Part shown: piece by piece, positions 34,105 to 52,000 of the stretch
How positions within the stretch are numbered: position 1 is the stretch's first letter
Layout: the number at the start of each line of letters is the position of its first letter
Assembly: GCA_900319275.1 (NCBI GenBank)
Contig: ONNS01000008.1
Span: 1-53,250 of the forward strand
Direction of reading: 5' to 3'
Length of the DNA stretch: 53,250 nucleotides
DNA from: an uncultured Eubacteriales bacterium
GTDB lineage: Bacteria > Bacillota > Clostridia > Oscillospirales > Oscillospiraceae
Made by a program: the position numbers and the translations under genes
The notes under the pieces: generated by a model
Told to the model about the DNA's origin: nothing
Database searches by the model: none
The model's input: the letters and a program-made list of their open reading frames with translations, nothing else

Positions 34105-34992
34105 TCAATATCTGACTTTTCCCTCGGCCACCGCCTTGAGATGTGCTCCGTAAGGAGATTTTCCGTACACCTCTGCGCTCTCGCGCAGTTTATCCCGATC
34201 AATGAAATCGTTGACATAGGCGATCTCTTCCGGGGCCGAAATCACGATCCCCTGCCTGCTTTGAATCGTTTCCACGAAATTGGCCGCCTGCAGCAAGCTG
34301 CTCATTGTGCCGGTATCCAGCCAGGCAAAACCGCGGCCCAGCAGCTGAACATCCAGAAGGCCGTCCTTCAGATACATCTCGTTGAGCGTGGTGATTTCCA
34401 GCTCTCCGCGCGCGGACGGTTTCACCTGATTGGCCCTTGCGCTTACCCCGGCAGGGTAAAAATACAGGCCGGTCACCGCATAGCTGCTCTTCGGCTCTTT
34501 GGGTTTCTCTTCGATGCTCAAAACCTTGCCGTTATCATCGAATTCCACGACGCCAAAGCGCTCCGGGTCGGGAACATAGTAGCCGAACACGGTCGCTCTC
34601 CCGGCTTCTTCCGCATTCTTCACGGCAGCACGCAGGATCGTCCTGAAGCCGTTGCCGTAGAATATATTGTCACCGAGAACCATCGCGCCGGCTTCCCCGC
34701 CAAGGAATTCCTCGCCGAGGATAAATGCCTGTGCAAGGCCGTCCGGCGAGGGCTGGACCTTGTAGGACAGCGATATGCCGAATTGACTTCCATCCCCCAG
34801 CAAAGCCTCAAACCGCGGCGTATCGCCGGGGGTGCTGATGATCAGAATCTCTTTGATCCCGGCAAGCATCAGCGTGCTCAGCGGGTAGTAGATCATGGGC
34901 TTGTCATAGATCGGCAGCAGCTGCTTGCTTGTCACCTTCGTCAACGGATAAAGCCTGGTTCCGCTGCCGCCGGCCAGAATGATTCCTTTCAT
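34105..34992 (-). CDS. rfbA: Glucose-1-phosphate thymidylyltransferase
   Basis: A 295-residue nucleotidyltransferase forming dTDP-glucose, the first step to dTDP-L-rhamnose. The motif [18 protein letters not shown], the following [18 protein letters not shown], and VLGDNIFYG are characteristic. The start at 34992 follows GAGGAGG; the longer in-frame version to 35037 overlaps rfbC and is rejected. It is the last gene of the rfbBDCA operon in transcription order. Confidence 0.95.
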
Positions 34993-35003
34993 GCGCCGCC
35001 TCC

Positions 35004-35612
35004 TCAGAATGTAAAAGTGTCTCTGAGCCCCGACCACTTCTGATCCTTCTCGCTTAAGATCAGCGGGGTTCCATCCTTCAATGTATAGCCGTCAGCACTG
35101 GCCGTGCCGTGATAGTCGCCGACCACCTCCGGCCATACGATGCCGATTTCCGGATCGTTCCAGGCCATGCCGCCTTCATCGTTCGGATGATAAAAGTCGT
35201 CACATTTATAGCAGAATTCCGCATCCTCCGACAGCACCAGAAAGCCGTGGGCAAAACCGCGCGGGATCAGGAACTGCTTATGATTCTCCGCCGTCAGGAT
35301 CTCCCCGTAGTATTTTCCGTAGGTCGGCGAATCTCTCCGCAGATCGACAGCGACGTCATAAACCGCTCCCCGGATCACACGCACCAGCTTGGTCTGCGGA
35401 AAACGCTTCTGAAAGTGGAGCCCGCGCAGCACGCCCTTTGTTGACATGCTCTGGTTGTCCTGCACGAAGGTGATATACAGTCCTGCCTCATACATATCCT
35501 TCTGGCTGAAGGTCTCCATGAAATAGCCCCGGGAATCCCCATGCACGGCAGGCTCGATCATGCAAAGTCCTTCGATTCCGTCAACATCGTATGTAACCTT
35601 TATCTGTCCCAT
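35004..35612 (-). CDS. rfbC: dTDP-4-dehydrorhamnose 3,5-epimerase
   Basis: A 202-residue cupin-type epimerase acting third in dTDP-rhamnose synthesis. [22 protein letters not shown] with the catalytic His, [11 protein letters not shown] and [12 protein letters not shown] are present. The start chosen is 35612 (MGQIKVTYD), overlapping the rfbD stop by 13 bases; a longer frame to 35663 would overlap much more. The ribosome site (GGAGAAA) is modest, consistent with coupling to rfbD. Confidence 0.93.
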
Positions 35613-36544
35613 GTGCACGTTTCTCCAATCTCCATCAAGTATCTTGCCAGTGCATCTTTCCAATCCGGAAGAGGCCGGAAGCCCATTTTAACCAATTTAC
35701 TTTTGTCCATGCGTGAATTCAACGGTCTTTTTGCCCGGCTCAGCCCGTATTCCGCCGTCGTTACAGGGATCACCTTTGTCTTCAGACCTGCCTGCCGGTA
35801 AATCTCACAGGTAAAATCATACCAGGAGATAAAGCCGCCCTCGTTGGTCGCGTGATAATAGCCGTAGTGTTCCGTCTCGATCATGTCTGCCAGCAGTCTG
35901 GCCAGATCCGCCGTATAGGTCGGCGTGCCGATCTGATCGCAGACGACCCGCACCGTGTCGTGCGTCTTTCCGACGTTCAGCATCGTCTTGACAAAGTTCC
36001 TGCCGTTCTTGCCGAAAACCCAGGCGATACGCACAATATAATAGTTTTCCAGGGTATCGGCAACCGCCGCTTCACCTTCCAGCTTGCTCTGACCGTAGAC
36101 GTTCAGCGGCGCAAAGCATTTGTCATCCGGCTGCCAGGGGCGCTCGCCCTGTCCGTCGAAGACATAGTCTGTCGACAGATACAGCATTTTGGCCCCCACC
36201 GCGCGGGCCGCCTCGGCCAGATAGCGCGTAGAGAGCACATTGGCCGCATATACGGCCTCGCGGTTTTCCTCCTCTTCCGCCGCGTCGACCGCCGTCCACG
36301 CCGCGCAATGGATGATCGCATCGGGTCTGAGCTTCTCGATTTCCGCCTTTACAGCGGCTTCATCCGTCAACTCGAGCAGGCGAAACGCGCTGGCGGCGGT
36401 TTCAGTATCAAGGGCATCGCTCGCCGTCGGGATATCTTCCGGTTTATGTCTGGCCGTGCCCCACGCCGTGTGGCCCCTGCGCCCAAGTTCAAGCATCACA
36501 TCATGCCCAAGCTGTCCGCTGACACCGGTGACAAATACATTCAT
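35600..36544 (-). CDS. rfbD: dTDP-4-dehydrorhamnose reductase
   Basis: A 314-residue short-chain dehydrogenase completing dTDP-L-rhamnose. NAD(P) motif FVTGVSGQLGHDVMLELG, the STDYVFDGQGERPWQ stretch and the YxxxK pair in NVYGQSKLEGE are seen. The ATG at 36544 overlaps the rfbB stop (TGATG). An insert around residues 25-50 compared with short homologues is not alarming. Confidence 0.94.
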   Translation of the reverse strand: MNVFVTGVSGQLGHDVMLELGRRGHTAWGTARHKPEDIPTASDALDTETAASAFRLLELTDEAAVKAEIEKLRPDAIIHCAAWTAVDAAEEEENREAVYAANVLSTRYLAEAARAVGAKMLYLSTDYVFDGQGERPWQPDDKCFAPLNVYGQSKLEGEAAVADTLENYYIVRIAWVFGKNGRNFVKTMLNVGKTHDTVRVVCDQIGTPTYTADLARLLADMIETEHYGYYHATNEGGFISWYDFTCEIYRQAGLKTKVIPVTTAEYGLSRAKRPLNSRMDKSKLVKMGFRPLPDWKDALARYLMEIGETCTWDR

Positions 36545-37572
36545 CAAGCTTTCCCCCGATTGCCGTACATCTGTTCATAATAATTCTGGTATTCGCCGGT
36601 AATGATCGGCTGCCACCAATCCTCGTGCTTTAAGTACCACTGAATGGTCTGCTCGATGCCGTCAGCAAACTTTGTCTCAGGCAGCCAGCCGAGTTCATTG
36701 TGGATCTTGGTCGGATCGATCGCGTAGCGCAGATCATGGCCTTTGCGATCCCCCACATGGGTGATCAGGCTCTCGGGTTTGCCAAGCTCCCTGCAGATCA
36801 GTTTGACGATCTCGATATTCTGCATCTCGTTGTGGCCGCCGATGTTGTAGACCTCACCGACCCGGCCGTTATGGATCACAAGATCGATCGCCTTGCAGTG
36901 GTCTTCGACATACAGCCAGTCGCGCACGTTCAGTCCCGCGCCGTAGACCGGCAGCGGCTTGTCGTGCAGCGCGTTTATGATCATCAGCGGGATCAGCTTT
37001 TCCGGGAAATGGTACGGGCCGTAGTTGTTCGAGCAGCGGGAAATGCTGACCGGCAGGCCGTAGGTGCGGTGGTAAGCCAGCACCAGCAGATCCGCCGACG
37101 CCTTGGAGCTGGAATACGGGGAGCTTGTATGGATCGGCGTCTCCTCGGTGAAAAACAGATCCGGCCGGTCCAGCGGCAGATCGCCGTACACCTCATCCGT
37201 CGAGACCTGATGATAGCGCGTGATCCCATACTTGCGGCAGGCGTCCATCAGCACCGAGGTACCGATGATATTGGTCTGCAGGAAGATGGACGGGTTTTCA
37301 ATGCTGCGGTCCACATGGCTCTCGGCCGCGAAGTTCACCACGATGTCCGGATGCTCTTCTTCAAACACCTTATATACCGCCTCACGGTCGCAGATATCCA
37401 ATTTACAGAAACGGAAGTTGGGCTTTTCCATGATCGGCGCGAGCGTGGAAAGATTGCCGGCATAGGTCAGCTTATCCAGGCAGACGATGCGATATTCGGG
37501 GTGCTTTTCCAGCATATAAAAGATGAAATTGGAGCCAATAAACCCGGCGCCGCCGGTCACAATAATGGTCAT
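36544..37572 (-). CDS. rfbB: dTDP-glucose 4,6-dehydratase
   Basis: A 342-residue extended short-chain dehydrogenase, second step of the rhamnose pathway. TGGAGFIGSNFIFYML, AAESHVDRSIENP, STDEVYGDLPLD and YSSSKASADLL with the catalytic Tyr/Lys are typical. CAGGAGG precedes the ATG. It heads rfbB-D-C-A, whose product feeds rhamnose-containing cell-wall polysaccharide. The promoter lies at 37644-37672, directly against a MITE. Confidence 0.96.
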   Translation of the reverse strand: MTIIVTGGAGFIGSNFIFYMLEKHPEYRIVCLDKLTYAGNLSTLAPIMEKPNFRFCKLDICDREAVYKVFEEEHPDIVVNFAAESHVDRSIENPSIFLQTNIIGTSVLMDACRKYGITRYHQVSTDEVYGDLPLDRPDLFFTEETPIHTSSPYSSSKASADLLVLAYHRTYGLPVSISRCSNNYGPYHFPEKLIPLMIINALHDKPLPVYGAGLNVRDWLYVEDHCKAIDLVIHNGRVGEVYNIGGHNEMQNIEIVKLICRELGKPESLITHVGDRKGHDLRYAIDPTKIHNELGWLPETKFADGIEQTIQWYLKHEDWWQPIITGEYQNYYEQMYGNRGKA

Positions 37573-37643
37573 CGAATGAACCTCCTGAAATGTTCTTCAG
37601 AACGAAAAGCGGTATGAACGAATAACGCTATACCAGTTATCTT

Positions 37644-37672
37644 ATCATACTGCTTTTTATGCCTTTTTTCAA
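37644..37672 (-). promoter_or_regulatory. Promoter of the rfbBDCA operon
   Basis: On the minus strand TTGAAA (37667-37672), 17 bases and TATGAT (37644-37649). The -35 hexamer is the last six bases before the terminal GGGCAAC of the adjacent MITE. Confidence 0.6.
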
Positions 37673-37833
37673 GGGCAACACCGCATAATTCGGCAAGAGC
37701 GGATGGCGAGAAAAATTGAGTTCTGATGAAGGCACTTTTTCGCAGAAATACTTTGTGTATTTCAAGAAAAAGTGACGAAATCAGGGCACAATTTTTCCGG
37801 CAGACGCCGCAGGCGGACTGTGCGGTGTTGCCC
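37673..37833. mobile_element. 161-bp MITE with long imperfect inverted repeats
   Basis: The element starts GGGCAACACCGC and ends with its complement GCGGTGTTGCCC. The two halves are imperfect inverted repeats over almost their whole length: matching blocks include GAAAAATTG, CTGAT, CACTTTTTC and GAAATAC around a central hairpin at 37745-37763. Flanks show AA on both sides, a possible short target duplication. It is non-coding; frames crossing it are chance. It resembles short palindromic elements I associate with Faecalibacterium-like genomes, from memory only. Confidence 0.8.
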
Positions 37834-37866
37834 AAGGTGTTTCGTAAGCGCTTATCAGGACTGTTA

Positions 37867-38199
37867 TCAGGACCAGGTTTTCCATACATCGGGACAGTAG
37901 CCCACCGTCGCCTGTTTGCCGTTGCGGACGATAGGCGTGCGGATCAGATAGGGATCTTCATACAGCTTATCCAGCTTGGCCTCGTTCGAGGCGAGGTACT
38001 GCACCAGCGAATAGTCCTCGTCCTGCGTATCGATCATCGCCTCGAGCCCGACTGCGCTCTTTACGCTGTTGAGCTCTCCCCTGCTCATCCCGTAACGGAG
38101 AATATCAATAAACTGGTATTTGATCCGCCGCTCCTTGAAATAACGCTCGGCCTTCTTTGTGTCAAAGCATTTGGCCTTTCCGAATATCTGGATATTCAC
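37867..38199 (-). CDS. ArsC/Spx-family thioredoxin-fold protein
   Basis: A 110-residue protein of the arsenate reductase-like glutaredoxin fold. NIQIFGKAKCFDTKKAERYFKE has a single cysteine (Cys11) in the position of the ArsC catalytic cysteine, and the TPIVRNGKQATVGY segment is the conserved cis-Pro strand. The Arg set required for arsenate binding is not obvious and no ars genes are nearby, so a role as a general thiol or Spx-like protein is possible. The start is GTG at 38199, with GGGAGG six bases before it; TATAAT-like sequence lies at about 38246-38251. Confidence 0.85.
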   Translation of the reverse strand: MNIQIFGKAKCFDTKKAERYFKERRIKYQFIDILRYGMSRGELNSVKSAVGLEAMIDTQDEDYSLVQYLASNEAKLDKLYEDPYLIRTPIVRNGKQATVGYCPDVWKTWS

Positions 38200-38356
38200 G
38201 GTATACCTCCCTTTTCCATTCGCTTTGCTGCCCGGTTGATTATGTATTATAGCACAAGTTACCCGCCATGTTGATCCTTTTATTCAAATTCCACGTGAAT
38301 TCTCCATGGCGCGGGGCGGCCGCGCATATCGCGGGCAGGCCTGCTGTCGCATATTG

Positions 38357-38373
38357 TGTCGTTTTAAACGACA
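38357..38373. promoter_or_regulatory. Palindromic operator 1
   Basis: TGTCGTTTTAAACGACA: an inverted repeat (extended arms 38355-38375, ten bases each side of one central base). It is about 60 bases upstream of the -35 of the dehydrogenase-fusion promoter and nearly identical to the second copy at 38491. It also sits inside a longer hairpin (GCCTGCTGT ... ACAGCAGGC) followed by CTTTTTG, so a terminator role for upstream plus-strand transcripts cannot be excluded. Confidence 0.6.
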
Positions 38374-38430
38374 CAGCAGGCAATCGCTGCCTTTTTGTTG
38401 CCTTCCGTGCCGTTATTCAAGAATTCGACG

Positions 38431-38459
38431 TTGACAAATGGATTATTATAGGGTATGAT
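38431..38459 (+). promoter_or_regulatory. Promoter of the HTH-dehydrogenase gene
   Basis: Consensus TTGACA (38431-38436), exactly 17 bases, and TATGAT (38454-38459), with a leader of about 70 bases to the ATG. The two palindromes lie on either side. Confidence 0.75.
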
Positions 38460-38490
38460 TTCGCTGTCTGACAAAAACATCTTTGCTTTT

Positions 38491-38507
38491 TGTCGTTTTA
38501 GGCGACA
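38491..38507. promoter_or_regulatory. Palindromic operator 2
   Basis: TGTCGTTTTAGGCGACA matches the upstream palindrome at 15 of 17 positions. It lies in the leader, about 30 bases past the -10 and 27 bases before the start codon, where bound protein would block transcription. The likely binder is the XRE domain of the gene it controls. Confidence 0.6.
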
Positions 38508-38533
38508 GAAAGCATATTCAGGAGGAATCATTC

Positions 38534-40036
38534 ATGCGCACCTTATCCCTTTCGCTGCTGTCGGAAACTGTGGTCTCCCGGCGAAAGGCTTTGAAGCTCA
38601 CCCAGGCTGAGCTCGCCAGACGCACAGGTATGAGCCGCTCCATTCTCTCGAATCTCGAGACCGGGAGCTATACGCCGTCCATCCCACAGCTTGAAGCGCT
38701 CTCCGCCGCGCTCAATTTCGACCTGACCGAACTGTTTGTCGAGCAGACCGGCGATCCTGTCCGCGTGGAAAAGAGCTACAAAGTCGCCGTAGCCGGTGTG
38801 GGATACGTCGGACTGTCGCTGGCGGTTCTGCTCTCGCAGCACCACGAGGTCACTGCTGTGTGCACAAAGCCCGAAAAGGCCGAGCTGATCAATCACTACC
38901 AGTCCCCCATTCAGGACGATTACATCGAAAAGTATCTGGCTGAGGCCAAAGCCGGAAAGCGCAGCTTGCAGCTGACCGCCACCACCGACGGCGCCGCTGC
39001 CTACGCCAATGCGGATTTCATCATTCTGGCCGTTCCCACGAATTACGATTCCAAGACCAATTACTTCGACTGCTCGGCCGTGGAGACGGTGCTGCAGCTT
39101 ATTAAGGACTGCACCGCCGAGCACGAAACCAAGCCCACCGTTGTGATCAAGTCCACCATTCCCGTCGGCTACACCCGGCACGTCCGGGAGATTTTTGGCA
39201 TGGACAACATCCTGTTCAGCCCGGAATTTCTGCGCGAGTCCAAGGCGCTTTATGACAATCTCTACCCCAGCCGCATCATCGTCGGCTGTGACAAGGGGAC
39301 CGAAGAGGCCGCGCACGTCTTTGCCGCCATGCTGCAGCAGGCCGCGCTGAAGAACCCGGTTGCGACGCTGTTTATGGGCTTTACCGAGGCGGAGGCCACC
39401 AAGCTCTTTGTCAATACCTATCTCGCCCTTCGCGTCAGCTTTTTCAACGAGCTGGACACCTACGCTGAGATCAAGGAGCTCAGCACCGCCGAGATCATCA
39501 AGGGCGTCTGTCTGGACCCGCGTGTGGGCGACTACTATAATAATCCCTCCTTCGGTTACGGCGGCTACTGCCTGCCGAAGGACACCAAGCAGCTGCTGGC
39601 CAACTACCGCGATGTGCCGGAGAATCTGATCCAGGCCATTGTCGAATCCAACCGCACCCGCAAGGATTTCATCGCCGACCGTGTGCTGGAGATCGCCGGG
39701 ACCTACGGCAACAGCGAGGCCTACTCGGCTTCCAAGGAAAGCCAGCAGAAAGATACCGTGGTGGGCGTCTACCGCCTGACCATGAAGTCCAACAGCGACA
39801 ACTTCCGTCAGTCCTCGATCCAGGGCGTGATGAAACGCATCAAGGCCAAAGGCGCGACCGTCGTGATCTACGAGCCGACACTGGAAAACGGCTCCACCTT
39901 CTTTGGCAGCAAGGTTGTCAACGACCTGAACGCCTTCAAAAAAATGTGCGGCTGCATCATCGCCAACCGCTATGACCCGGTGTTGAACGACGTAGAGGAC
40001 AAGGTCTACACCCGCGACCTGTTCCGCCGCGACTAA
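38534..40036 (+). CDS. ugd: UDP-glucose 6-dehydrogenase-type enzyme with N-terminal XRE helix-turn-helix
   Basis: A 500-residue fusion. Residues about 12-66 form an XRE/HTH_3 DNA-binding domain ([20 protein letters not shown], then [14 protein letters not shown]). From about residue 82 a nucleotide-sugar dehydrogenase follows: [19 protein letters not shown] (NAD site), [32 protein letters not shown], and [13 protein letters not shown] with catalytic Cys346. The expected reaction is UDP-glucose to UDP-glucuronate with 2 NAD; other UDP-sugars are possible. The start at 38534 follows AGGAGG. With two palindromic sites around its promoter, it looks like an enzyme that senses its own substrate or NAD state and represses itself (inference). 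It leads the three-gene module. Confidence 0.9.
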
Positions 40037-40198
40037 TACTGATATCTAATAGAAATCTCGGATTCTTTCCGGCCAGAATTGCGCCATGCATCGTTGAAGC
40101 CCTTGACCATATATGTCCATTATGCTCTGCGGGCTTCGCCTCACCTGGCACAATTCTGTCTCGGAAATCATTTCCGACCTTTCTATCAGATACCAGTA
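40037..40198. mobile_element. 162-bp MITE-like inverted-repeat element
   Basis: The termini TACTGATATCT and AGATACCAGTA are imperfect inverses, and similarity continues inward for about 65 bases: TCGG, TTTCCG, CAGAATTG and GAAGCCC blocks recur in inverted order. TA flanks both ends as a possible duplication. It begins directly after the dehydrogenase stop codon and ends 15 bases before the kinase start, so it is transcribed within the operon. It has no credible coding frame. Its sequence is unrelated to the MITE at 37673. Confidence 0.75.
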
Positions 40199-40213
40199 TA
40201 AGGAGAAACTGCC

Positions 40214-41389
40214 ATGCTTTGTGAAGAATCTTTTTTTAACATTTATAACCGCGCCCCGTCCGGGCTGAGCTTCTCCCCCTATCGCATCTGCCCGATCGGC
40301 GCGCACTCCGATCACAATCTGGGCAAGATCACCGGCTTTGCGATCGACAAGGGCATCCACATTGCCTACAACACCAAGCAGAACGGCGTCATTGAGATGA
40401 CAAGCCTGCAGTTCCCCAAGCGCGCCCAGTGGCACATCCGCGAGATCGGCGAAAAGACCGGCGACTGGGCCGATTATCTGCGCGGCGCGACCTGGGCCCT
40501 GGCCAAGGAGCATCCCCTCACCGTCGGTCTGTGCGGCGTGATCGAAGGCTCGCTGCCGATCGGCGGGCTGTCGTCCTCGGCGGCGGTGATCCTCGCGTTT
40601 CTGGATGCGCTGTGCAAGGTAAACCACATTACGCTGACGCCGCAGGAGCTGATCGATATTGCCTTTGATGCGGAGAAGAACTACGTCGGTGTGAATGTCG
40701 GCACGCTGGATCAAAGCTGCGAGGTGCTGTCCAGGCGGGATCATCTGCTGTATCTCGACTGCCGGGACAACCACTACGAGCTGATCCCGGCCCATCCGGG
40801 CATGAAGCCCTATCAGATCGCTATCTTTTTCTCGGGGCTGGAGCACACGCTGGCGGGCAGCAAGTACAACATGCGCGTGGACGAGCTGCGCGCGGGCGTG
40901 TATGCGCTGCAGGCCTTTGCCGGTATGGAGTACGGCAAGTTCAACCAGGCCAACGCCCGGGATGTCAGCTGGGAGATCTACCAGACCTACAAGAACAGGC
41001 TGCCCGAACAGTGGGCGCGCCGCTGCGAGCACTGGTACACCGAGTTTCAGCGCGTCGAGGCCGGGGCCGAGGCCTGGCGGCGCGGCGATATCGAGGAATA
41101 CGGCCGTCTCTCGTTTGCCTCGGGCTGGAGCAGCATCCACAACTGGGAATCCGGCGCGCCGGAGCAGATCAAGCTGTATGAAATCATGACCGAGACCGAC
41201 GGCATCTACGGCGGCCGATTCAGCGGCGCGGGCTTCAAGGGCTGCTGCATGGCGCTGATCGATCCGGCCAAGGCTGAAACCATCGCCGAGCAGGTGGAGA
41301 GGAAGTATCTCGACGCCTATCCGGTCATGCGCGGGAAATACAGCTTCCATCTGTGCCAGAGCGCGGACGGCATCGCCAATCAGATATGA
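40214..41389 (+). CDS. GHMP-family sugar kinase, galacturonokinase-like
   Basis: A 391-residue kinase of the galactokinase clan. The substrate motif reads YRICPIGAHSDHN rather than the GEHTDY of true galactokinases. The ATP loop is LPIGGLSSSAAVILAF, and the C-terminal GRFSGAGFKGCCMALID is the third GHMP motif. From memory the CPxGAHxDH motif and the C-terminal SGxSSIxNxxxGAP stretch match plant galacturonic acid kinase (GalAK), so the likely product is galacturonate-1-phosphate or a related uronate/sugar-1-phosphate. AAGGAG precedes the ATG. It lies between the dehydrogenase and a nucleotidyltransferase, the expected setting for a UDP-uronate salvage step. Galactose or another sugar as substrate is not excluded. 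Confidence 0.85.
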   Translation: MLCEESFFNIYNRAPSGLSFSPYRICPIGAHSDHNLGKITGFAIDKGIHIAYNTKQNGVIEMTSLQFPKRAQWHIREIGEKTGDWADYLRGATWALAKEHPLTVGLCGVIEGSLPIGGLSSSAAVILAFLDALCKVNHITLTPQELIDIAFDAEKNYVGVNVGTLDQSCEVLSRRDHLLYLDCRDNHYELIPAHPGMKPYQIAIFFSGLEHTLAGSKYNMRVDELRAGVYALQAFAGMEYGKFNQANARDVSWEIYQTYKNRLPEQWARRCEHWYTEFQRVEAGAEAWRRGDIEEYGRLSFASGWSSIHNWESGAPEQIKLYEIMTETDGIYGGRFSGAGFKGCCMALIDPAKAETIAEQVERKYLDAYPVMRGKYSFHLCQSADGIANQI

Positions 41390-41403
41390 GGGGGGTACGG
41401 GGC

Positions 41404-42141
41404 ATGAAATGTCTGATTCTCGCCGCGGGCTATGCGACGCGGCTCTATCCGCTGACGGAAAACTTCCCGAAGCCGCTGTTGAAGGTCGGGGAGAAAACCA
41501 TTCTCGACTGGCTGCTGGACGATATCGACACGAGCGGGGCCGTCGACGGCTATTATGTGATCTCGAACCACAAGTTTGCCGATCATTTCCGGCACTGGGC
41601 GGAGGCCAGCCGCCTGCCGATCACCGTGGTGGACGATGGCACCAGCACCAACGAGACCCGTCTCGGCGCCGTGCGCGACATCCAATTTGCCATTGAGCAG
41701 GTCGGACTGGACGACGATCTGCTGATCATCGCCGGGGACAACGTGCTGGATTTCAGCCTGAAGCACTTTATCGACTATGCGCTTGAAAAGGACAGCTCGT
41801 GCACGATGCGCTATTACGAGGCCGACGAAAAACGCCTGACGAAGAGCGGCGTGGCGGAGCTCGGCGAGGGCGAGCGGCTGCTGTCGCTGGAGGAAAAGCC
41901 CGCGCAGCCCAGATCGCACTGGTGTACGCCCCCCTTCTATTTCTACAAGAAGGAAGACGCCAGGCGCATCCCCGAGGCGATCGCCGACGGCTGCGGCGTA
42001 GACGCGCCGGGCAGTCTGGTGGCGTGGATGTGCCGCCACAGCGTGATGCACAGCATGGAGATGCCGGGCAGCCGCTATGACATCGGGAATCTGGAGAGCT
42101 ACGAGGCCGTGAAAAAGGCCTATCGCGGTATTACGAAATGA
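41404..42141 (+). CDS. Sugar-1-phosphate nucleotidyltransferase
   Basis: A 245-residue NTP-transferase with the pyrophosphorylase signature MKCLILAAGYATRLYPLT and the following NFPKPLLKVGEKTILD. LIIAGDNVLDFSL provides the metal-binding Asp. The C-terminal left-handed beta-helix of GlmU-type enzymes is absent. The most natural role is to turn the sugar-1-phosphate made by the upstream kinase into a UDP- or dTDP-sugar. It begins 14 bases after the kinase stop behind a GGGGGG site; a longer in-frame start at 41353 is unsupported. Two terminators follow. Confidence 0.88.
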   Translation: MKCLILAAGYATRLYPLTENFPKPLLKVGEKTILDWLLDDIDTSGAVDGYYVISNHKFADHFRHWAEASRLPITVVDDGTSTNETRLGAVRDIQFAIEQVGLDDDLLIIAGDNVLDFSLKHFIDYALEKDSSCTMRYYEADEKRLTKSGVAELGEGERLLSLEEKPAQPRSHWCTPPFYFYKKEDARRIPEAIADGCGVDAPGSLVAWMCRHSVMHSMEMPGSRYDIGNLESYEAVKKAYRGITK

Positions 42142-42208
42142 TACCGTACTCTGATAGTTACTGCAAAAGCTTACAATAGTAAACTCTACCTGTAGAGAGC
42201 CAAAACAC

Positions 42209-42235
42209 GCCGGGGAGCCTGTCGGCTTCCCCGGC
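42209..42235 (+). terminator. Terminator after the nucleotidyltransferase gene
   Basis: Stem GCCGGGGAGCC paired with GGCTTCCCCGGC (one bulged base), then TGTTCTTAT on the plus strand. It closes the three-gene nucleotide-sugar operon. Confidence 0.75.
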
Positions 42236-42250
42236 TGTTCTTATAGAATA

Positions 42251-42285
42251 AGCCCTGCCCCGTTATGATTGGGGCAGGGCTTTTA
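42251..42285. terminator. Bidirectional terminator between convergent genes
   Basis: Perfect 11-bp stem (42251-42261 with 42271-42281) followed by TTTTA on the plus strand. It lies 14 bases beyond the stop of the minus-strand giant surface protein and may serve both directions. Confidence 0.75.
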
Positions 42286-42298
42286 TGGGTTTGCCTGG

Positions 42299-45200
42299 TT
42301 ACTTTCTGAGAATGTACTCATCTCTCGCAGCAGTCCGGGCTTCATCCAGAGTTAGATACCTGCCGGGCTGGCCCGGGCCTTCAAATACGCCGTTGGCCGT
42401 AACGACCAGGTAGAAGTAGATATGCGGAACCTGCTCTTCGATGATATACCAGCCGTACGGCAGCTCGCCGACCCAGAAAACGCCGGTCGGGCCAGAGGTA
42501 AGATTGCTCATCTGTGTTCCGCCCTTCGGTGTGTACGGCGCTCCGTTCGTGCCCTTGTAGACATAGAACTTCTTGTCGCTGAGCGGATTGTAATCCGTAT
42601 CGACCTTTCTCAGAACGACCTTGCTGGATCCGGCGATCCCGGACCAGTAGATATAGCCGGAAGCTTCCCCTTCCAAAGTGCCGTACAGGTATTCGCCAGT
42701 ATCGTTCTCTGTCAGTTTGTCGTCGCGGGCGTTGCGGAAGGCGTTGCAGCTTGTCTCACTCACTGTGCCCTTCACTACAGCAAACTGCTGCAGTGTCTTA
42801 TAATGCGGGGAATCCTCGGCCCAGACCCAAATGGTTCCGGCACCGGATGTGATGTCGCCATTGACGAACAGAGACGCCGCATTCTTGGATTCCTCTGCGC
42901 CGGCGTATCCGGCGATGTAAATGTCCTGACGGGCACGTGTGTAGCTCTTTCCACCATTCAGCTGTGCCACCAGATTTTCGGTTTTGAAGTTGCCGTTGGT
43001 CGTGGTGATGTTGCCGCCGACGTCCAGACCGTTCCCGCCGAAGTTCGGATTCCCCGAGAGATAGAGCATGCTGTCCTGTGCCAGATAGATGCCGGCGCCA
43101 TTGCCGTCCGACTCATTGTGGTTGACTGTACCGCCGGTCATCGTGACGGAACCGCGCGCCGCGACATATACCGCACCGCCACTGTAGTTCTCAGCGGTTT
43201 TGGCGTTCTGCAGCATTGCTCCGCCCTGGATGGTCAGCTTTCCGCCATTCTTAACATTGGCAATTCCGCCATTGGCCGCGACCGTGTAGGCGCTCTTCGC
43301 ACCTTCGAGGATGATTGTCGCAAATGTCAGATCGCCGCTCACATCAAACATGGACGCATTCGCAAACGCGCGGCGTATGGTGGACGTGGTTCCCGCATCC
43401 TGCTTGGGGAACAGCGTGTCTCCGGAAGATGCTGTGGTCAAAGTGACCTTACCTGTGTTTGCTGTGATGGTTTCGTTCAGTCTGTAATCACCTATCAGCA
43501 TCTGAATCTGAACGCCATTGCTTACGGAATAACTTGTTGGATTACTGCCATTCGATCTGTAGAGAGTTCCCTCCAGCGCCTTAAATGCACCATCGTTACC
43601 CGCGAGCTCTGTATAGACTGCAGGAGCGTAGTAATACGGCTGATTTGTGCTATTGCCACCGTCTTGTCCTTCGCCCGTCTTGTTGGTCACCTTATCCCAG
43701 TCACACCTCCGATACAAGAGATTTCCACTCATATCCGTAATCTTGCAGACCGGCATCAGGTTGCTGAATGTCAGCGCTGAGGTGTAAGGATCCACATCCG
43801 TCCTGGTCTTGTTTTCGCCGATGGTGCTTGCGAAAGTACTGACCCTGATGACCTGATAGGTTACGCCGTTATACTCCAGAGATTCGGTTGTCGTACCAGC
43901 CCCATTCATAGGCATCGCAGCGTAGCGTTTGGCCTGATCAACCGTCAGATACTCTGTCACCTCATAGGTCAGGCCTTCTGACAGATTCACGCCCGAAATA
44001 GTCTGACCATCAACCAGGCCAAATACCGCCGTCGTAGTTTCCGATTCATTGCTGGTGAACTGCATCTCACCATAATCGCCGGTTCTACTGTCAATCTGGG
44101 CGGCATTCAATTGCCCCGCCACTGTCGCGTTTCCCCGGACATTGACCTTGAAGAGGAACATTTCATCCGGGTCGACCGTTGTGGATGCGCCGGATACAAC
44201 CTCCTTGGTTACTTCGAGCGAGAATATCTTGATCCAATAGATGCAACAGTCTGCATACTCCCCTGTCTTCACATAGTTGGGATCTGTTTTTTCGATGATA
44301 CCGCCCTTCAGGCCGTTTCGATCATTCACGAAGCTGTAAAAGTTGGTGGTGTTGGTTTGGCTGTTCTGATTCTTAAAGTTACCAAACGGTTTACGCTCCA
44401 CACCATGCTTGTCATATAATGTTGTTCCATCCGGCACATACACACCGATATAGGCGCCCGGATACAGCCCATCACCAGTGGTATTGATTACCCCGTTAAA
44501 ATCTTGATTCAGTTCCACGTTGCAGGCTTTGTTCGTCGCCTTACTGGCCTCGCTGGTATTGCCGGAGATATTGACCTTGCCGGAGAAGTAGAGGCGGGAG
44601 GCATTGCTGTATACCATGATACCACCACCGGTTTTTTGGGCGCTGTTGTTGATGATGGAGCCGCCGGACATGTACATGCTTTGGCCACCAGCTATACATA
44701 CACCGCCGCCACCACTACTCGTACTCGTTGACGAGCAGCCCTGGATCGTTCCACCGGTCATCTTAAAGGTGCCGTTCTTAGTACGCACGCCGCCGCCGGT
44801 GCTGGCTGAGCACTGGTAGATGCTGCCGGCTGTAAGCGTTAATGTACCTACTGTACTATTACTGCCCACATAAACGCCGCCGCCGTCGCCAGCCGCGCAG
44901 TTTCGTATGACGCCGCCCTCAATGTTCAATGTGCCTTCGTTGAGGAGGACGCCGCCGCCGTTCTTGCCGCTTTTGACCTTCCCGTTTTGCAGCACGGCAT
45001 TTTCTCCGAGCGTAACAGTACAGTCCGCATTATTGATGTACATACACCGTGTCTCATCCGATACGGTAACACCGTTCTCTGTTCCGCCGTCGATGCAGAT
45101 GTTCGTAAGGGTAAGGTTGCCTTGTACGTTCAACAGGCTGTTGTTTCCCACTCCAGAACCGCGAATCACCGTTGCGCGTCCGCCGGCTCTGCCTTCAAAG

Positions 45201-46024
45201 TGATACGTATCCAGATCAGCCTCGGTATAGGGCCAATCGCTTGGGAAGCTTTTTTCCGCCGTGGTAAAGGTTACCTTTCTTCCCTCTACGTACGGAAGCG
45301 TCATATCAGCGGGGGTTTCATAGTGCTCCACCAGCATCTTGATGCAGAAATCCGTCCCTTTGTACTCAGTACCATCCTTGTAGTACAGCTTCAGATCCTC
45401 CATACGGAGCAGACTGAACGGGCTGGCTATACTTCCCTCATTATCGACGCCGGTATCCAGTCGGTCAAAGATGGCCGGATATGTAGCAGTTCCTTCATAA
45501 TACTTAATATACAGGAGTCTGCCGATTCCATCCGTGAGCTTTGCGATGGGCGGTCCGGCCCAAATGATCGTTCTGTTGGTTGGGTCTGTTCGGTCTGTAA
45601 TGCCGTAGAGCGTGCTGCTGTCCGCCTTGAAGACAGGTTTATCATCGGAGAATCCATTCGTTAATGCATACTTTGCTTCGCCGAACTTTGTACCCGCCTT
45701 CGCCGCGTTCACGACACGGATTTCGCTATCATCACTCAGGTTGCAAAAGACATAGACGCTGTTGGCATTGTTTTCCTTTGTGCTGCTGTTCCACCACAGG
45801 CGCAGATCGGAGAGCGTACCGTTGACCGTGGTGTTGTTGTGGACAATGATGGTATCGCTATCACCTTCCGCCGCATTCTCAGGGCCAACAAACAGTGTTC
45901 TTTCATCGACCAAATACACACCGGCGCAGTTTGCTGCGGTATTGTTGGTCAGGCGGTTGCCGGTGATCTCGGTGCCATTGCGCAGGGTCAGCTGGGATTG
46001 GTCATAGATGCCGCCGCCCTGGTT
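42299..46024 (-). CDS. C-terminal part of the giant beta-helix surface protein (after a frameshift)
   Basis: An open frame of about 1,240 codons that continues the protein encoded at 45988-53250. It joins at the A-run 46023-46026, just after an in-frame TAA; the first internal ATG is at 45919. Read in this frame the junction gives QGGGIYDQSQLTL, exactly the repeat pattern lost in the upstream frame. Two further beta-helix blocks (GGGVYVGSNSTVGTLTLT, GGAVYVAARGSVTMTGGTV) alternate with Cna-B-like segments (FSLEVTKEVVSGAS, KVVLRKVDTDYNPLSDKKFY ... ELPYGWYIIEEQVP). The protein ends DEARTAARDEYILRK without an LPxTG motif or membrane helix. It is either a pseudogene half or joined by slippage or sequencing error. 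Confidence 0.8.
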   Translation of the reverse strand, partial: NQGGGIYDQSQLTLRNGTEITGNRLTNNTAANCAGVYLVDERTLFVGPENAAEGDSDTIIVHNNTTVNGTLSDLRLWWNSSTKENNANSVYVFCNLSDDSEIRVVNAAKAGTKFGEAKYALTNGFSDDKPVFKADSSTLYGITDRTDPTNRTIIWAGPPIAKLTDGIGRLLYIKYYEGTATYPAIFDRLDTGVDNEGSIASPFSLLRMEDLKLYYKDGTEYKGTDFCIKMLVEHYETPADMTLPYVEGRKVTFTTAEKSFPSDWPYTEADLDTYHFEGRAGGRATVIRGSGVGNNSLLNVQGNLTLTNICIDGGTENGVTVSDETRCMYINNADCTVTLGENAVLQNGKVKSGKNGGGVLLNEGTLNIEGGVIRNCAAGDGGGVYVGSNSTVGTLTLTAGSIYQCSASTGGGVRTKNGTFKMTGGTIQGCSSTSTSSGGGGVCIAGGQSMYMSGGSIINNSAQKTGGGIMVYSNASRLYFSGKVNISGNTSEASKATNKACNVELNQDFNGVINTTGDGLYPGAYIGVYVPDGTTLYDKHGVERKPFGNFKNQNSQTNTTNFYSFVNDRNGLKGGIIEKTDPNYVKTGEYADCCIYWIKIFSLEVTKEVVSGASTTVDPDEMFLFKVNVRGNATVAGQLNAAQIDSRTGDYGEMQFTSNESETTTAVFGLVDGQTISGVNLSEGLTYEVTEYLTVDQAKRYAAMPMNGAGTTTESLEYNGVTYQVIRVSTFASTIGENKTRTDVDPYTSALTFSNLMPVCKITDMSGNLLYRRCDWDKVTNKTGEGQDGGNSTNQPYYYAPAVYTELAGNDGAFKALEGTLYRSNGSNPTSYSVSNGVQIQMLIGDYRLNETITANTGKVTLTTASSGDTLFPKQDAGTTSTIRRAFANASMFDVSGDLTFATIILEGAKSAYTVAANGGIANVKNGGKLTIQGGAMLQNAKTAENYSGGAVYVAARGSVTMTGGTVNHNESDGNGAGIYLAQDSMLYLSGNPNFGGNGLDVGGNITTTNGNFKTENLVAQLNGGKSYTRARQDIYIAGYAGAEESKNAASLFVNGDITSGAGTIWVWAEDSPHYKTLQQFAVVKGTVSETSCNAFRNARDDKLTENDTGEYLYGTLEGEASGYIYWSGIAGSSKVVLRKVDTDYNPLSDKKFYVYKGTNGAPYTPKGGTQMSNLTSGPTGVFWVGELPYGWYIIEEQVPHIYFYLVVTANGVFEGPGQPGRYLTLDEARTAARDEYILRK

Positions 46025-49000
46025 TTAGAATTGTCAACGATCAGATGGTAGTCATTGCCTTCAATATTCTTGTAAATGCCACCGCCGTGTTTTTTTGCGG
46101 TATTCCCACTGACTTCCGAATTGGTAAGGATCATGTTCCGGACATTGGCATAAACACCACCGCCGCCAATCTCATTATTCCCTGTGCCATTGGCAGTATT
46201 ATTTCTGATGATCGCGCCTGAGATCGTGAGCATGGAGCCTTCAACATCCAAGTTTTGGTATATTCCTCCACCGTTCTTAGCCGCTGTGCTGCCGGAAATC
46301 TCGGATTTTGTAACTGCGCTGCCTTCTGTTTGCGCTTTGACCTCCACCGTCTTAGCTATGGTGTAGACGCTGCCGCCGTTGCCGCCGGAGTTGTTGCTGT
46401 CCAGAGTACTTCCCTCGACAGTCAGCGCCATAGAAGCACCGGTATCATTAATATAGAACCAAATGCCGCCGCCGTCACCGGTTGCCGAGTTTTTGGAAAT
46501 CTCTGCCGATGTGATCTCAAGTGTCCGTACGCCAGCATAGATGCCGCCGCCCGCTCCGCCGGTAACAGTATTACCGTTCACATTGGCGCAGCTTACGTCA
46601 AGCTTGGAGCCATCCACATTCCGGCTCTGATAGATACCGCCGCCGTTGGTCTTGGCTATGTTGTTGGATACAGAGGAGCGGATCGCTTTACCGTTGTAGT
46701 CGGTCTTTGTCTCGCTGGCCCCGACATTCACGGTCTTGGCGAGGGTATAGATACCACCGCCGCTGGCGCCGGAGGTATTTCCGTCGATAGAACTGCCATT
46801 GATGGTCAGAACCTGCTTTGCGCGATTGGTATCATTATCTGCGTCGAACCACACGCCGCCGCCATCGCTGGAGGCGATGTTTCTGGAAATACTGGAATCC
46901 GCGATAGTCAGCGACTTATAGCTGTAAGCATACAAACCGCCACCCTTGCTGGTGCAGATATTGTCGGTGATCATTGCACCATTGATCGTTACCGTTCGGC
47001 AGTTGGTAAAGACGCCGCCGCCGTTCTTTGCGCTATTTTTCGTCTGATTGCCAGAGATCGTGGCATTTGTGATCGTCAGCGAAGTGTTGTCCGCATTTTT
47101 ATCATGGTAAATGCCGCCGCCTTCATTATTTGACGTGCAATTTTTGATCTCCGTATGGCGGGACTGGATGCTTCCGAGGATGGCATCGTCGGAAATGGTG
47201 TTCTCGGACAGATCCTTGTAACTGCCGTCTTCAAACAGCACGGAAACGGCTTTTTGGTTACTATCAAGGTAATAGTATCCGTCTCCGATGATAAGCTCCT
47301 TCGGTTTTCCGTAGATGCCGCCGCCCTGGTTGGCCGTGTTCCGTTCAAAGGTACAACCATAGACCTCGCCCTTCTTCGCGTTTCCGTTGGAGATACAGAA
47401 GCCGCCACCATAAAGAGCCAGGTTGTTCGTAAATGTGCTGTTGATCACCTTGGTGTAGACTGCGTTGCAGCGGAAACCACCGCCGTTGCCGTTACTGGTA
47501 TTTGTTGTAGTCAGCTGACAATCGTTAAAGGTGCAGTCCGAAACCGTAACCCAGCAGTCAGCCGTCGGTGTAGCGGCATTCAGCGCATAAACATTGAATC
47601 CGCCGCCGTTACGTTCTTTTGCGACACAGTGTTCAAACCTGCAGTTGGTAACGTTGATGGTCTTGGAGTCAATCTCCAGGCCGCCCGCCGCGTTGGCCGA
47701 GCAATTTGTAAACGTACAACCGGTGACATTTGTCCAAGAACGGTTATCCTTATCTACGCGGTGGAACACCGCGCCCGCCTGGTCGACTGCGGTACAGCTA
47801 GTGAAATCACAATCTTCCAGCGTCATAGTCTCGGCATTGGTGACAATCGCGCCTCCGCCCAGTCGGTTGGATTTCACCGTCGTCGTGGACGTGCAGCCGA
47901 TAAAGTCGGAATCCTTGACCTCAAGAACCGTGCCAGGTAATGTATTCTGTGCATCTTTGGTATGATCCGGACGTTTGTCAAAATTGAACATCACCAGAAG
48001 TGCGCCGCCGTTGCTGGCGTATACGTTCTTGAAATCGACCGTATCGATATAAACATTCGTATATTGTGTTGCCACGGCGCCTCCGTCACTGGAACCGCGG
48101 ACGCTCTTTCCGTCAAAGATAATGTTATTCAGCCTTAGCGTCGTCACAACCTTGTTGTTCTCCAACGCATTCCAACCTTTAATCATGGAATCCGTATTCA
48201 GCGTATCGCGGCTGATGGTTGCACGGTCACCGGAGCCATTATAGCAATAGGTCGCTCCTTCCTTCGCCGCCGTGGTCAGCGTAATATCGTAGCCCTTCGG
48301 GATGTTCACATCGTCGGAGGCCGTCAGCAGATAGTCCGTCACCATCTCAATGGTGGCCGTCTTTGCCGTTGCCAGCGTGTAGGGCCGGTTTGCCCCTGCG
48401 GTGGCAACGATATCCGCAATGGCATCGCTGATCTTGCTGTAGGGATGTTCGTTGTCTTCTGCGTCCATGACCTTGCAGATGATCTTATTGCTGCCGAAGA
48501 TGATGTTATAAGTTCCCGCAGCGTTCAGCGTCGTGCCCGTGAGCTGTTCAAATGTTCCGTCTGTGGCAGAGACCGTTACCGTCTCCTCGCTGAGACTGGT
48601 CTCTGCTCCCCTGCGGAGCCGGACACTCCCGCCCGTCGTTGTCTCAAAGCTGCCGTCCAGAGTGTAGGCCATGTTCTGACCACCGGGGATCAGCAGACTG
48701 ACAGACTGTCCGGCCGCCAGCGTCAGGTCAGACGCTGTGATCGGCAGCAGCGCGGTACGGATCGCGCCATTCTTAGCGAAAACCATGCCGTAGCCGGCCG
48801 ACGTGCCGCTGTTGATCACGCTGATGGGACTGCCGTTCACCGTCATTTTGAGATCGCTGACCGTCAGCTTCTCCTCGGTGTTGTTCTCGATAGAGATGTA
48901 GGCGGGCTCAGAGTAAATGACATAGATTTGCCCGGGAAGGTCATATGTCTGACCACTGCGCGTCCTGACCTGCCACTTTTCAGCTGTCGTATTCCAGATG

Positions 49001-52000
49001 AGTGTTGTAATGTCATAGCCGTAATCGGGTGCGTTGAAGTAAAACGCGCCACCAAAAGCGGCATTGGGGTGTTTATTGTTTTTGAACCAGTTGCTGACAT
49101 CCGTATACTTCGTGTAAACGTCAGCGGCCAGTTCGGACAGCGCCACTTCTCCTTCGCTGTTGATCGTCGGATAGTATGTGCCGATGTCCTTGACAGTTGT
49201 CCCTCTGGCTTCGGATGTGCCGTTCGGAAGTCCACTTGAATTGCTCGCCCGATACATGACTTCGATCCTGACGCCGTTGCCCCAATAGAGCTTTTTCGCC
49301 GCAGTGTCGCTCTGAACCGTCAGGGACGTATAGCGGTCGTTGGTAATTTTGGCTACATTGCTGTTGCTGGTATAGACAGCGAATCTCGCGCCGGGGACGC
49401 TGCGGGTCGGCACTACCGCATCCGGGACATAGATGCCGATTTCCGCGCTGCCGCCCAGCGTATCAATATTGATCACCGCGTCATCGTCCTGATCCAGATA
49501 CACATTGCTCTTCGGCGCGTCGTCAGCGGTTCCCAGCCTGTTGTCCTTGATCTGCACATCGCCGGTAAAGACCAGCCGCGCGTCTTTGCTGCCCACGCCG
49601 ACCGCACCGCCCTCGGAGGGGACGTTGCCCGTATAGGAACCCGCACTGAAATTGGCTCTGCCGGTATTCGTAAAGATCGCCGCGCCGTTGATCGCGCTGT
49701 TGCGGGTAGCGGTGACCGTCGTCAGGGTGAGGGAGCCGCTGTCCAGGTAGACCGCGCCGCCTTTGCCAGCCGCCGCGCTGTTGTCGGTAAACTGAGTATA
49801 CACTGTAACATCGTTTGCCGTATACCCGGAAATGATTACTGTACCGCTTCCAGCATAGAGAGCACCGCCGTTTCCATTAGTCGATTTGTTGTTCTTCATG
49901 CTGCCGCCAGATACCGTCACATTGCCGCTGCCTGCGTATACCGCACCGCCGTTTCCGTCTGCGGTATTGCCATCAGATGTTGTATCTCCGCCAAAGGTGC
50001 TGTTTGTGAGCGTCACAGCACCGGAACCGGCATACACCGCGCCGCCGTCAGTGCCAGCAGCATTTTGGGTCAGCGCAGTTCCCGTGATCGAGACCGCGCC
50101 GGAATTGGTATACAGCGCGCCGCCCTTGCCGGACTCCGCTTTGTTGCCTTGAATCGTCGGAGCCGTTCCACTGTTGGAAGCAGACACCGTGATACTGCCG
50201 CTTCCGGCAAACACAGCGCCGCCGTCGGTATTAGCCGTATTATTTGACAGGCTGCCGCCGGTTACTGTTACATTGCCGCTGCCCGCATAGATCGCACCAC
50301 CGCTACCGGCTGTTGCATTGTTCTGGGTCATGCTTCCGCCGGACACCGTCACATTGCCGCTGCCCGCATAGATCGCACCGCCACCGCCTGTGGAAGCTGT
50401 ATTGTTATCGACCGAGCCTCCAGAGATCGTGGCTGGGCCGGAGACGGTATAGACCGCGCCGCCCTCTTTTGCTGTATTGTTTTTTACTTCCGCCGTTTCA
50501 GATACCGTTATGGAAGCGTTATTTGAACAGACTGCACCGCCCTGACCGTTTTCTGCTTTATTTCCAGACATACTACCGCCGGAAACGCTGACGGAGCCAC
50601 CATTCACATAGATCGCACCGCCGTTGCCCGTGGTCGCCATATTGCCCGTTAAGGCGGGTTTTACCGTAACACCCTCCGTTTCGGAAATACTGATCGTAGC
50701 GGTCGCATTGGCGTAGATCGCGCCGCCTTCCTTCGCTGTGTTGGTCTTAATAGCGCCGCCCTGGTAGATCTCGATCTCGACGACATTGTTCGCAAAAATG
50801 GCACCTCCGTTGCCGGACTCCGCCTTGTTGCCAGTAATCGTGGCCGTTCCAGAAACCGTAACCATACCGCCGGCGAGCCAGATCGCGCCGCCGTTGCCGG
50901 AGGTCGCGGTGTTGTTCTGAATCGCGCCGGTTCCGCTCAGAGTTATGGTGCTGTTTCCGCTGTGATAGATCGCGCCGCCCTCCGCCGCGCTGCAGTTTTG
51001 GATCGTACCGCTGACGTTGATATTCCCGGCCGTGGCGTTAATCGCGCCGCCGCCCACACAGTTCTGGATTATCGCGCCGGAGCCTATCACCAAGTTACCG
51101 GCACTCCGAATCATCGGGGCTGTAGCTTCAATGGAGCTACCCTCCAGCGTCAGGTTTGTGAACGTAAGATTTCCAGCGCTGGAAAATAGCGGTACCGCCG
51201 CCAAATCAGCCGTTCTGCTGATAACGGCAGGGTGATCCATAACATCCGGATCCTCTATCGTAGTCAACGTAATATTGAAATCACTCGGAATCTCTACGGT
51301 ATCCGCCAAAGGCATGAGATAGTCCGTCAGCATTTCTGCTGTTGCCGTCTTTGTAGCAATATTCTCATCCACATAGTCGACCATGCTTCGCAGGGTATAG
51401 AAATAATGGTCGTCGATCTTGCAGATTGCCTTGGGGCTGTTGGTCAGATCTACTTTCTTTTCTGCATCCAGAGTGAAGGAGACCGTTGTATTGCCCGTTA
51501 CCGCCATCGGGGTCGTCGTACTTCCAATGATCGAACCAGTTCTCGCTGTGAGCGTATAGTTCTCATTTCCACTCTCTGTGATGGTGTATTCGCCGCGGCC
51601 CAGACCCTTGATTCTTACTCTCGTGCCATCTACAACAGTCAGCGTTATAGTACCCGGCGTAGTGCCTTCAGCCGGTGTGGCAGTAACAGTTGCGCTATCG
51701 GTGCCTTCGGCGTCATAGCTGCTCTTCGTGATTCCCGTCGAACTGATGATAACGGTAAAGCTGGCACCACTGAAAAGCGGATCCTCGCCGCTCTGAGACA
51801 TATCTACCGTTTTACTTATCTGGAGGTCATAACCTCGCTCAGAATAAATCGCATAAACTGTAGGTGTCCCGGAAAGCGGAAGGTCTTTCCATGTACTCCC
51901 GTCAAAGCTGTACTGAAGCGTATTGTTCTGCACCTTGAGTTGCATGTTTAGACCAGTGCTTACGTCCAGGTTGGAACTGTTCGACGCTGTTCCGCTGCCT

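Follow-up and report, generated by a model that had tools for sequence, protein, structure and literature searches.

The window considered here, a 53,250-nucleotide stretch of DNA, encodes a UDP-glucose 6-dehydrogenase (UGDH) with an XRE-type helix-turn-helix (HTH) domain joined to its N terminus, and comparison with its relatives suggests that the protein is probably bifunctional, regulating its own UDP-glucuronate operon by way of palindromes that flank the promoter. The palindromes are very probably the binding sites of the fused HTH, with the gene's own promoter as the target of the protein. Enzymes that act as transcription regulators are a known kind of protein; the HTH-UGDH form appears to be new, and no description of it was found in the open-licence PMC literature (most subscription papers lie outside it). 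The features concerned are:

38357-38373, no strand assigned: putative upstream operator TGTCGTTTTAAACGACA, centred about -101 from the predicted transcription start; called from sequence, with the same design 5' of relatives
38431-38459, forward strand: predicted sigma-70-type promoter TTGACA-17-TATGAT between the operators, an 11/12 match to consensus
38491-38507, no strand assigned: putative downstream operator TGTCGTTTTAGGCGACA, centred about +33, between promoter and ribosome site; called from sequence
38534-40036, forward strand: XRE-type HTH (residues 16-67) fused to a complete UDP-glucose 6-dehydrogenase (residues 83-500); from the open reading frame, Pfam and alignments
38630-38659, forward strand: codons of the recognition helix region, residues 33-42, including Ser34; counted from the start of the open reading frame
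40214-41389, forward strand: GHMP-type sugar kinase (galactokinase-like), the next gene; profile match
41353-42141, forward strand: nucleotidyltransferase (NTP_transferase), overlapping the kinase gene; profile match

The initial annotation of this DNA had read an HTH_3 domain and a complete dehydrogenase, with a catalytic Cys346, in one 500-residue frame, and profile searches bear this out. The frame runs from an ATG at 38534 to a stop at 40036, with AGGAGG immediately 5' of the start codon. Pfam HTH_3 matches residues 16-67 (E 6e-14; 52.3 bits, cut-off 23), which places the domain among the XRE (Cro/C1-type) HTHs, and the N-terminal, central and C-terminal UDPG_MGDP_dh domains together cover residues 83-487. 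The TIGR03026 subfamily model scores above its cut-off (298 versus 189.8), and NCBIfam PRK15057 (UDP-glucose 6-dehydrogenase) matches residues 83-500 with 495.6 bits, under its cut-off of 757. Among solved structures, the fusion matches the UGDHs 3PHL/3PID and 1DLI/1DLJ (E 1.6e-140 to 7.7e-130), which we take to be the enzymes of Klebsiella and Streptococcus pyogenes, respectively. The likeness is confined to the UGDH part: the alignments begin at residue 80 (3PHL) or 83 (1DLI), extend to residue 500 and leave the HTH unaligned. A 10-residue site containing Cys346 is kept in all three UGDH alignments shown. A structure model of modest quality (mean pLDDT 77, pTM 0.59, active-site region partly below 50) puts the HTH helices within residues 6-67, the recognition helix at 35-42 and a linker of about 12 residues between the two domains (pLDDT about 69 over residues 71-80).

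Is the enzyme part likely to be active? The catalytic Cys, Lys, Asn and Asp are all present as residues alongside the three UDPG_MGDP_dh domains. Moreover, 11 positions taken, on the basis of solved UGDHs, to belong to the active site or cofactor motif, Cys346 among them, are invariant in all 35 fusion proteins longer than 450 amino acids (two truncated ones were left out). Of the 15 genomes in the window's genus that bear a fusion, 13 have no second UGDH of more than 50% identity listed, so the fusion should supply UGDH activity there unless these assemblies, being incomplete, have missed a copy. The two exceptions are the window's own genome, which has a 69% identical plain UGDH copy on another contig, and genome G065, with a 70% identical copy that contains one TGA within its match. 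We expect the fusion to be a working UGDH.

The promoter of this gene lies between two related palindromes. TGTCGTTTTAAACGACA is a perfect 8+1+8 palindrome of 17 bp, and TGTCGTTTTAGGCGACA is identical to it at 15 of 17 positions. The initial annotation had described paired palindromes around a strong promoter at 38431-38459; the promoter, the places and the 15/17 identity all stand, and the second palindrome turns out to be imperfect, with six of its eight pairs matching. A generalised operator pattern allowing up to three mismatches finds these two places only in the window (four strand-matches); shuffled sequence gave a mean of 0.90 matches, and at least four strand-matches in two of 100 shuffles. 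The strongest evidence against chance palindromes, which we regard as decisive, is their conservation 5' of relatives. Three other elements were noted in this region: a leftward promoter-like site between the operators (TTGTCA-18-TATAAT, 11/12, 38445-38474, reverse strand), a longer imperfect inverted repeat, seen by eye, that contains the upstream operator, and after it a terminator-like hairpin at 38378-38392 with a T run, repeat and hairpin together lying within 38338-38392.

The HTH plus UGDH architecture, which the initial annotation had proposed looking for, was found at 49 loci, 37 in a first set that includes the window and 12 in a second set fetched once the operator pattern had been fixed. 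The loci were drawn from the window's genus, its family, other families of the order and named records; the sources include metagenome assemblies and few named strains, one of which is Ruminococcus flavefaciens 007c (L075). Listing thresholds were E 1e-150, or 1e-180 for the second set, so that weaker fusions fall outside the sample. Copies were removed (L059, L061 and L067, as copies of L010, L009 and L014), G012 and G098, whose matches begin at residue 42-44, were left out, L068 with its 117 bp of upstream DNA was excluded from the counts, and the UGDH loci L048, L054, L057, L058 and L205 were not used. The genus of the window has the fusion in at least 15 of 102 genomes, one of them with two copies. 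The sample contains groups of close relatives, namely L070 with L073-L077, and L184-L188 of a single genus, each of which amounts to little more than one event.

Sites fitting the loose pattern TGWYR-N7-YRWCA were scored within 250 bp upstream at loci with at least 200 bp of upstream DNA. The first set served to fit the pattern, which occurs there at 30 of 36 fusions, near relatives being counted repeatedly, and at 0 of 37 HTH-less UGDHs; its background, taken from other parts of the same DNA, is 0.023 per 250 bp. Because of that fitting, it was tested on the later-fetched second set, where 9 of 12 fusions have it versus 0 of 19 plain UGDH genes. (For control genes the upstream distance was taken from the start of the match, sometimes other than the true start codon.) The check proposed in the initial annotation, whether the palindrome is conserved 5' of orthologues, has a positive outcome for the loose pattern at most fusions. 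The strict pattern of the window itself, TGTCG-N7-CGACA, is rarer: 8 of 36 fusions versus 0 of 37 HTH-less genes in the first set, and 0 of 12 second-set fusions. A leave-group-out weight matrix found at least one site at 34 of 36 fusions (that of L165 is barely over threshold and untrusted) and at least two at 24 of 36, with 3 and 2 of 37 HTH-less UGDHs passing the two matrices used. With these matrices the second set gave 11 of 12 fusions versus 4 of 19 plain genes, a contrast made weaker by the trial of two matrices, and the 4 of 19 show the matrix to be less specific than the loose pattern. The half-sites differ between groups, being TGTYG-N7-CRACA in the window's group and TGTTRC or TGACGC in a sister group. 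Sites are carried even by L168 and L079, although their HTHs share no more than 46% and 39% identity with that of the window. The site of L180 is weak, and L179 and L071 each have one site outside the loose pattern. In addition, one genome (G024) has two fusions, L161 (G024:C58) and L159 (G024:C143), each preceded by an operator at a distance of about 134 bp, one of the two operators being identical to the window's; and L184, L187 and L188, all of one genus, have sites at three places, about -191, -158 and -31, with a spacing of about 33 bp between the outer two.

The operator appears to have few other places to act. Across seven genomes, the window's upstream operator occurs with up to two mismatches at seven places, six of them upstream of fusion genes and the seventh (G065) inside long frames; a reversed-pattern control gave two matches, both in G024. 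In the window's genome only the fusion promoter is matched, at both sites. Two of the seven, the fusion-bearing genomes G043 and G051, are without a match at this level of mismatch, their sites being more divergent. Such a near-unique target fits a single-target autoregulator. Two candidates for further targets were tried and rejected. The first was a wider regulon: TGTCG-N7-CGACA occurs at 15 places in the window's genome versus 10 for the reversed control, 12 of the 13 places away from the promoter lie inside stop-free frames of at least 200 codons by a heuristic count (the exception being L143), and none of the 13 is within two mismatches of the window's upstream operator. The second was a conserved divergent target; the upstream genes are mostly unlike between loci.

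How might an enzyme control its own operon? The scheme we favour is that an active UDP-glucose dehydrogenase doubles as the regulator, its N-terminal XRE domain binding, presumably as a dimer, the 17-bp palindromes on either side of the promoter. Occupation of the downstream operator, aided by the upstream one, would lower transcription, and UDP-glucuronate synthesis would thereby be limited by the enzyme's own amount. The most likely refinement would be that UDP-sugar, NAD or NADH in the active site alters DNA binding, as in other trigger enzymes. Self-controlling enzymes are known from a handful of pathways. PutA, BirA and NadR are trigger enzymes with a DNA-binding domain, often with few targets that include their own pathway, and the fusion would resemble them in having enzyme and regulator in one chain. 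The DNA-binding domain of PutA is a ribbon-helix-helix, and to our knowledge none of the three is a UDP-sugar dehydrogenase.

A closer parallel is BzdR, described in PMC3602430 as an XRE HTH with a shikimate-kinase-like domain that lacks activity, together with Q1, a synthetic HTH-shikimate kinase chimera that is enzyme and repressor at once. These proteins share with the fusion an N-terminal XRE HTH, a linker and a C-terminal enzyme-type domain, as well as several operators in the regulated promoter (PMC3602430). BzdR differs in that catalysis has been lost and another compound is sensed, whereas the fusion has an intact UGDH active site; Q1 was built, whereas the fusion is natural (PMC3602430). 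The fusion falls outside the BzdR family, its C-terminal part being a UGDH and PRK08154 matching residues 6-72 only (27.6 bits, cut-off 204). It may be, and we suggest so tentatively, that the fusion is a natural and widespread trigger enzyme of nucleotide-sugar metabolism, with an XRE domain that responds directly to the state of the catalytic site (UDP-glucose/UDP-glucuronate, NAD/NADH) and either loops or brackets the promoter of its own gene, and hence a natural counterpart of the lab-built enzyme-repressor intermediate proposed for BzdR. By analogy to Q1, one might speculate that the DNA is released when UDP-glucose is bound without NAD: in vitro, one substrate alone derepressed the chimera and both substrates together did not (PMC3602430).

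Perhaps, instead, the HTH gauges only the amount of enzyme and ligands of the active site have no effect on DNA binding. This is a serious possibility, though we would favour it only tentatively: nothing in the sequence indicates ligand coupling, the linker is some 12 residues long, and the synthetic fusion of XRE and shikimate kinase had enzyme activity but could not be induced in vivo (PMC3602430). Against such a purely quantitative control, the same chimera was derepressed in vitro by one substrate alone and needed its linker (PMC3602430), and it is the fusion, rather than a separate repressor, that is kept across families, which hints that the join matters. If the trigger-enzyme reading is true, the supply of UDP-glucuronate would be under one-protein control. 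The family tree includes eroded and apparently lost HTHs. Since many related rumen and gut bacteria, as well as the named strain R. flavefaciens 007c, carry a fusion whose active site is intact and whose operators are conserved, the step from enzyme to regulator becomes directly testable in nature.

Repression is suggested by the positions of the sites, about +33 and -101 in the window. Among relatives, with close ones counted repeatedly, the downstream site, whether second or sole, has its centre between +20 and +42 in 23 of 27 loci, and that of L162 sits in the core promoter; the upstream site is centred at -100 to -104 in 18 of the 30 loci that have one. A promoter is predicted between both sites in 21 of the 24 loci with a site pair. 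The arrangement recalls the gal operon, in which GalR forms a loop between two operators flanking the promoter. GalR, however, is a separate LacI-type regulator, whereas here the regulator domain is fused and looping is without support from phasing. The pairs are 50-246 bp apart, with 17 of 24 at 120-136 bp, and their helical phase vector is short (R 0.12, n=24, the pairs of L154 and L157 being doubtful). Phasing neither supports nor disproves the looping between the two sites that the initial annotation thought possible, and at least two sites are present at 24 of 36 loci. Activation through the upstream site near -102 is an unlikely alternative that draws on five loci (L157, L159, L160, L161 and L163) whose single good site occupies the upstream position, between -102 and -104 relative to the predicted start. 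A lone site near -103 is poorly explained by simple blocking and might work by another mechanism; the prevailing downstream positions, in contrast, fit repression.

Do the sites belong to the fused HTH or to some separate XRE regulator, with the fused domain decorative or used elsewhere? XRE-type HTHs are common in these genomes, which gave many HTH-only matches. Even so, we consider a separate regulator quite improbable, since the sites accompany the fused HTH rather than the UGDH, are not found where that HTH is eroded, and tend to track its residue 34. The erosion is seen in L170, the sole fusion of 35 without Arg35, and L165, the sole one without Glu42; neither has a convincing operator site, nor does the HTH-less L034. 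A quick tree of 69 UGDH parts, from which L060 and L076 (truncated), L072 (motif not found) and L055 and L056 (short) were left out, unites 32 fusions and L034 in one group (SH-aLRT 99). In it L034 is the sister of L170, and since the HTH of L170 is eroded, the L034 lineage seems to have lost its HTH. L168, a long branch, and L079 fall outside the main group, so that presence or absence of the HTH needs three changes on the tree. Two fusions go the other way: L169 keeps an HTH with 48% identity to that of the window, and the 9.2 kb of DNA before its gene, which lies closely behind another one, contain no loose-pattern site, and L191 has an HTH with no operator site found upstream. The initial annotation took HTH-bearing orthologues without palindromes to speak against its proposal; these two and the eroded L165 and L170 are four such loci among the 48 with at least 200 bp upstream, a minority of the relatives.

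Residue 34, just ahead of the recognition helix, is Ser, Asn or His among the fusions, and base 4 of the operator half-site tends to follow it, a suggestive trend. Ser34 goes with C at all six scorable loci and Asn34 with T at nine of 11, five of the nine being close relatives in the R. flavefaciens group, while the His34 loci are mixed. Over 17 rows, after removal of the ties (L157, L167, L066, L078), of the rows with His and of those lacking a loose-pattern site (L159, for example), Fisher's test gives p 0.0023, uncorrected for kinship. Independent contrasts number one on well-supported branches, where none opposes the trend, and four on all branches (sign test p 1); being so few, they make the trend a hint and no proof. 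Of the self-targeting XRE repressor in the initial annotation, then, the self-targeting part gains from the operators that accompany the fused HTH, the near-unique target and the residue 34 trend, and repression is read from position only.

It is very hard to see the palindromes as RNA hairpins of a terminator or leader, even with a 5-bp stem possible in 18 of 26 downstream sites and the terminator-like structure after the upstream copy (38378-38392), because 8 of the 26 downstream sites and 15 of the 30 upstream ones are unable to form the full set of five outer pairs and the upstream copy precedes the predicted promoter; in addition, no Rfam match was present in 37000-42500, and the HTH-less UGDH genes have no loose-pattern sites.

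The genes downstream vary. An NAD-dependent epimerase follows the fusion in 20 of 37 loci, directly in 16 and further along in four, and in R. flavefaciens it starts three bases past the fusion stop codon. Among the solved structures related to this epimerase are 5U4Q and 6ZL6, which we take to be UDP-glucuronate 4-epimerases. The window has the GHMP kinase and the nucleotidyltransferase in the epimerase's stead, and in G043 kinase, nucleotidyltransferase and epimerase are consecutive. Relatives of the kinase adjoin the fusion in three of the 36 other loci and stand second downstream in one more, and a relative of the nucleotidyltransferase occurs in two of the 36. Upstream of the fusion, on the opposite strand, lies a dTDP-rhamnose-type gene run (34105-37572, reverse), named by eye, whose last gene (36544-37572, reverse) belongs to the epimerase/dehydratase family by profile search. 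Beyond the operon are two adjoining giant frames, 42299-45919 and 45988-53238 (both reverse; 1206 and 2416 amino acids), with GGAIYAGSGNVTVSGGS-like repeats; judged by eye, they probably encode surface proteins of the beta-helix kind and may be two parts of a single gene.
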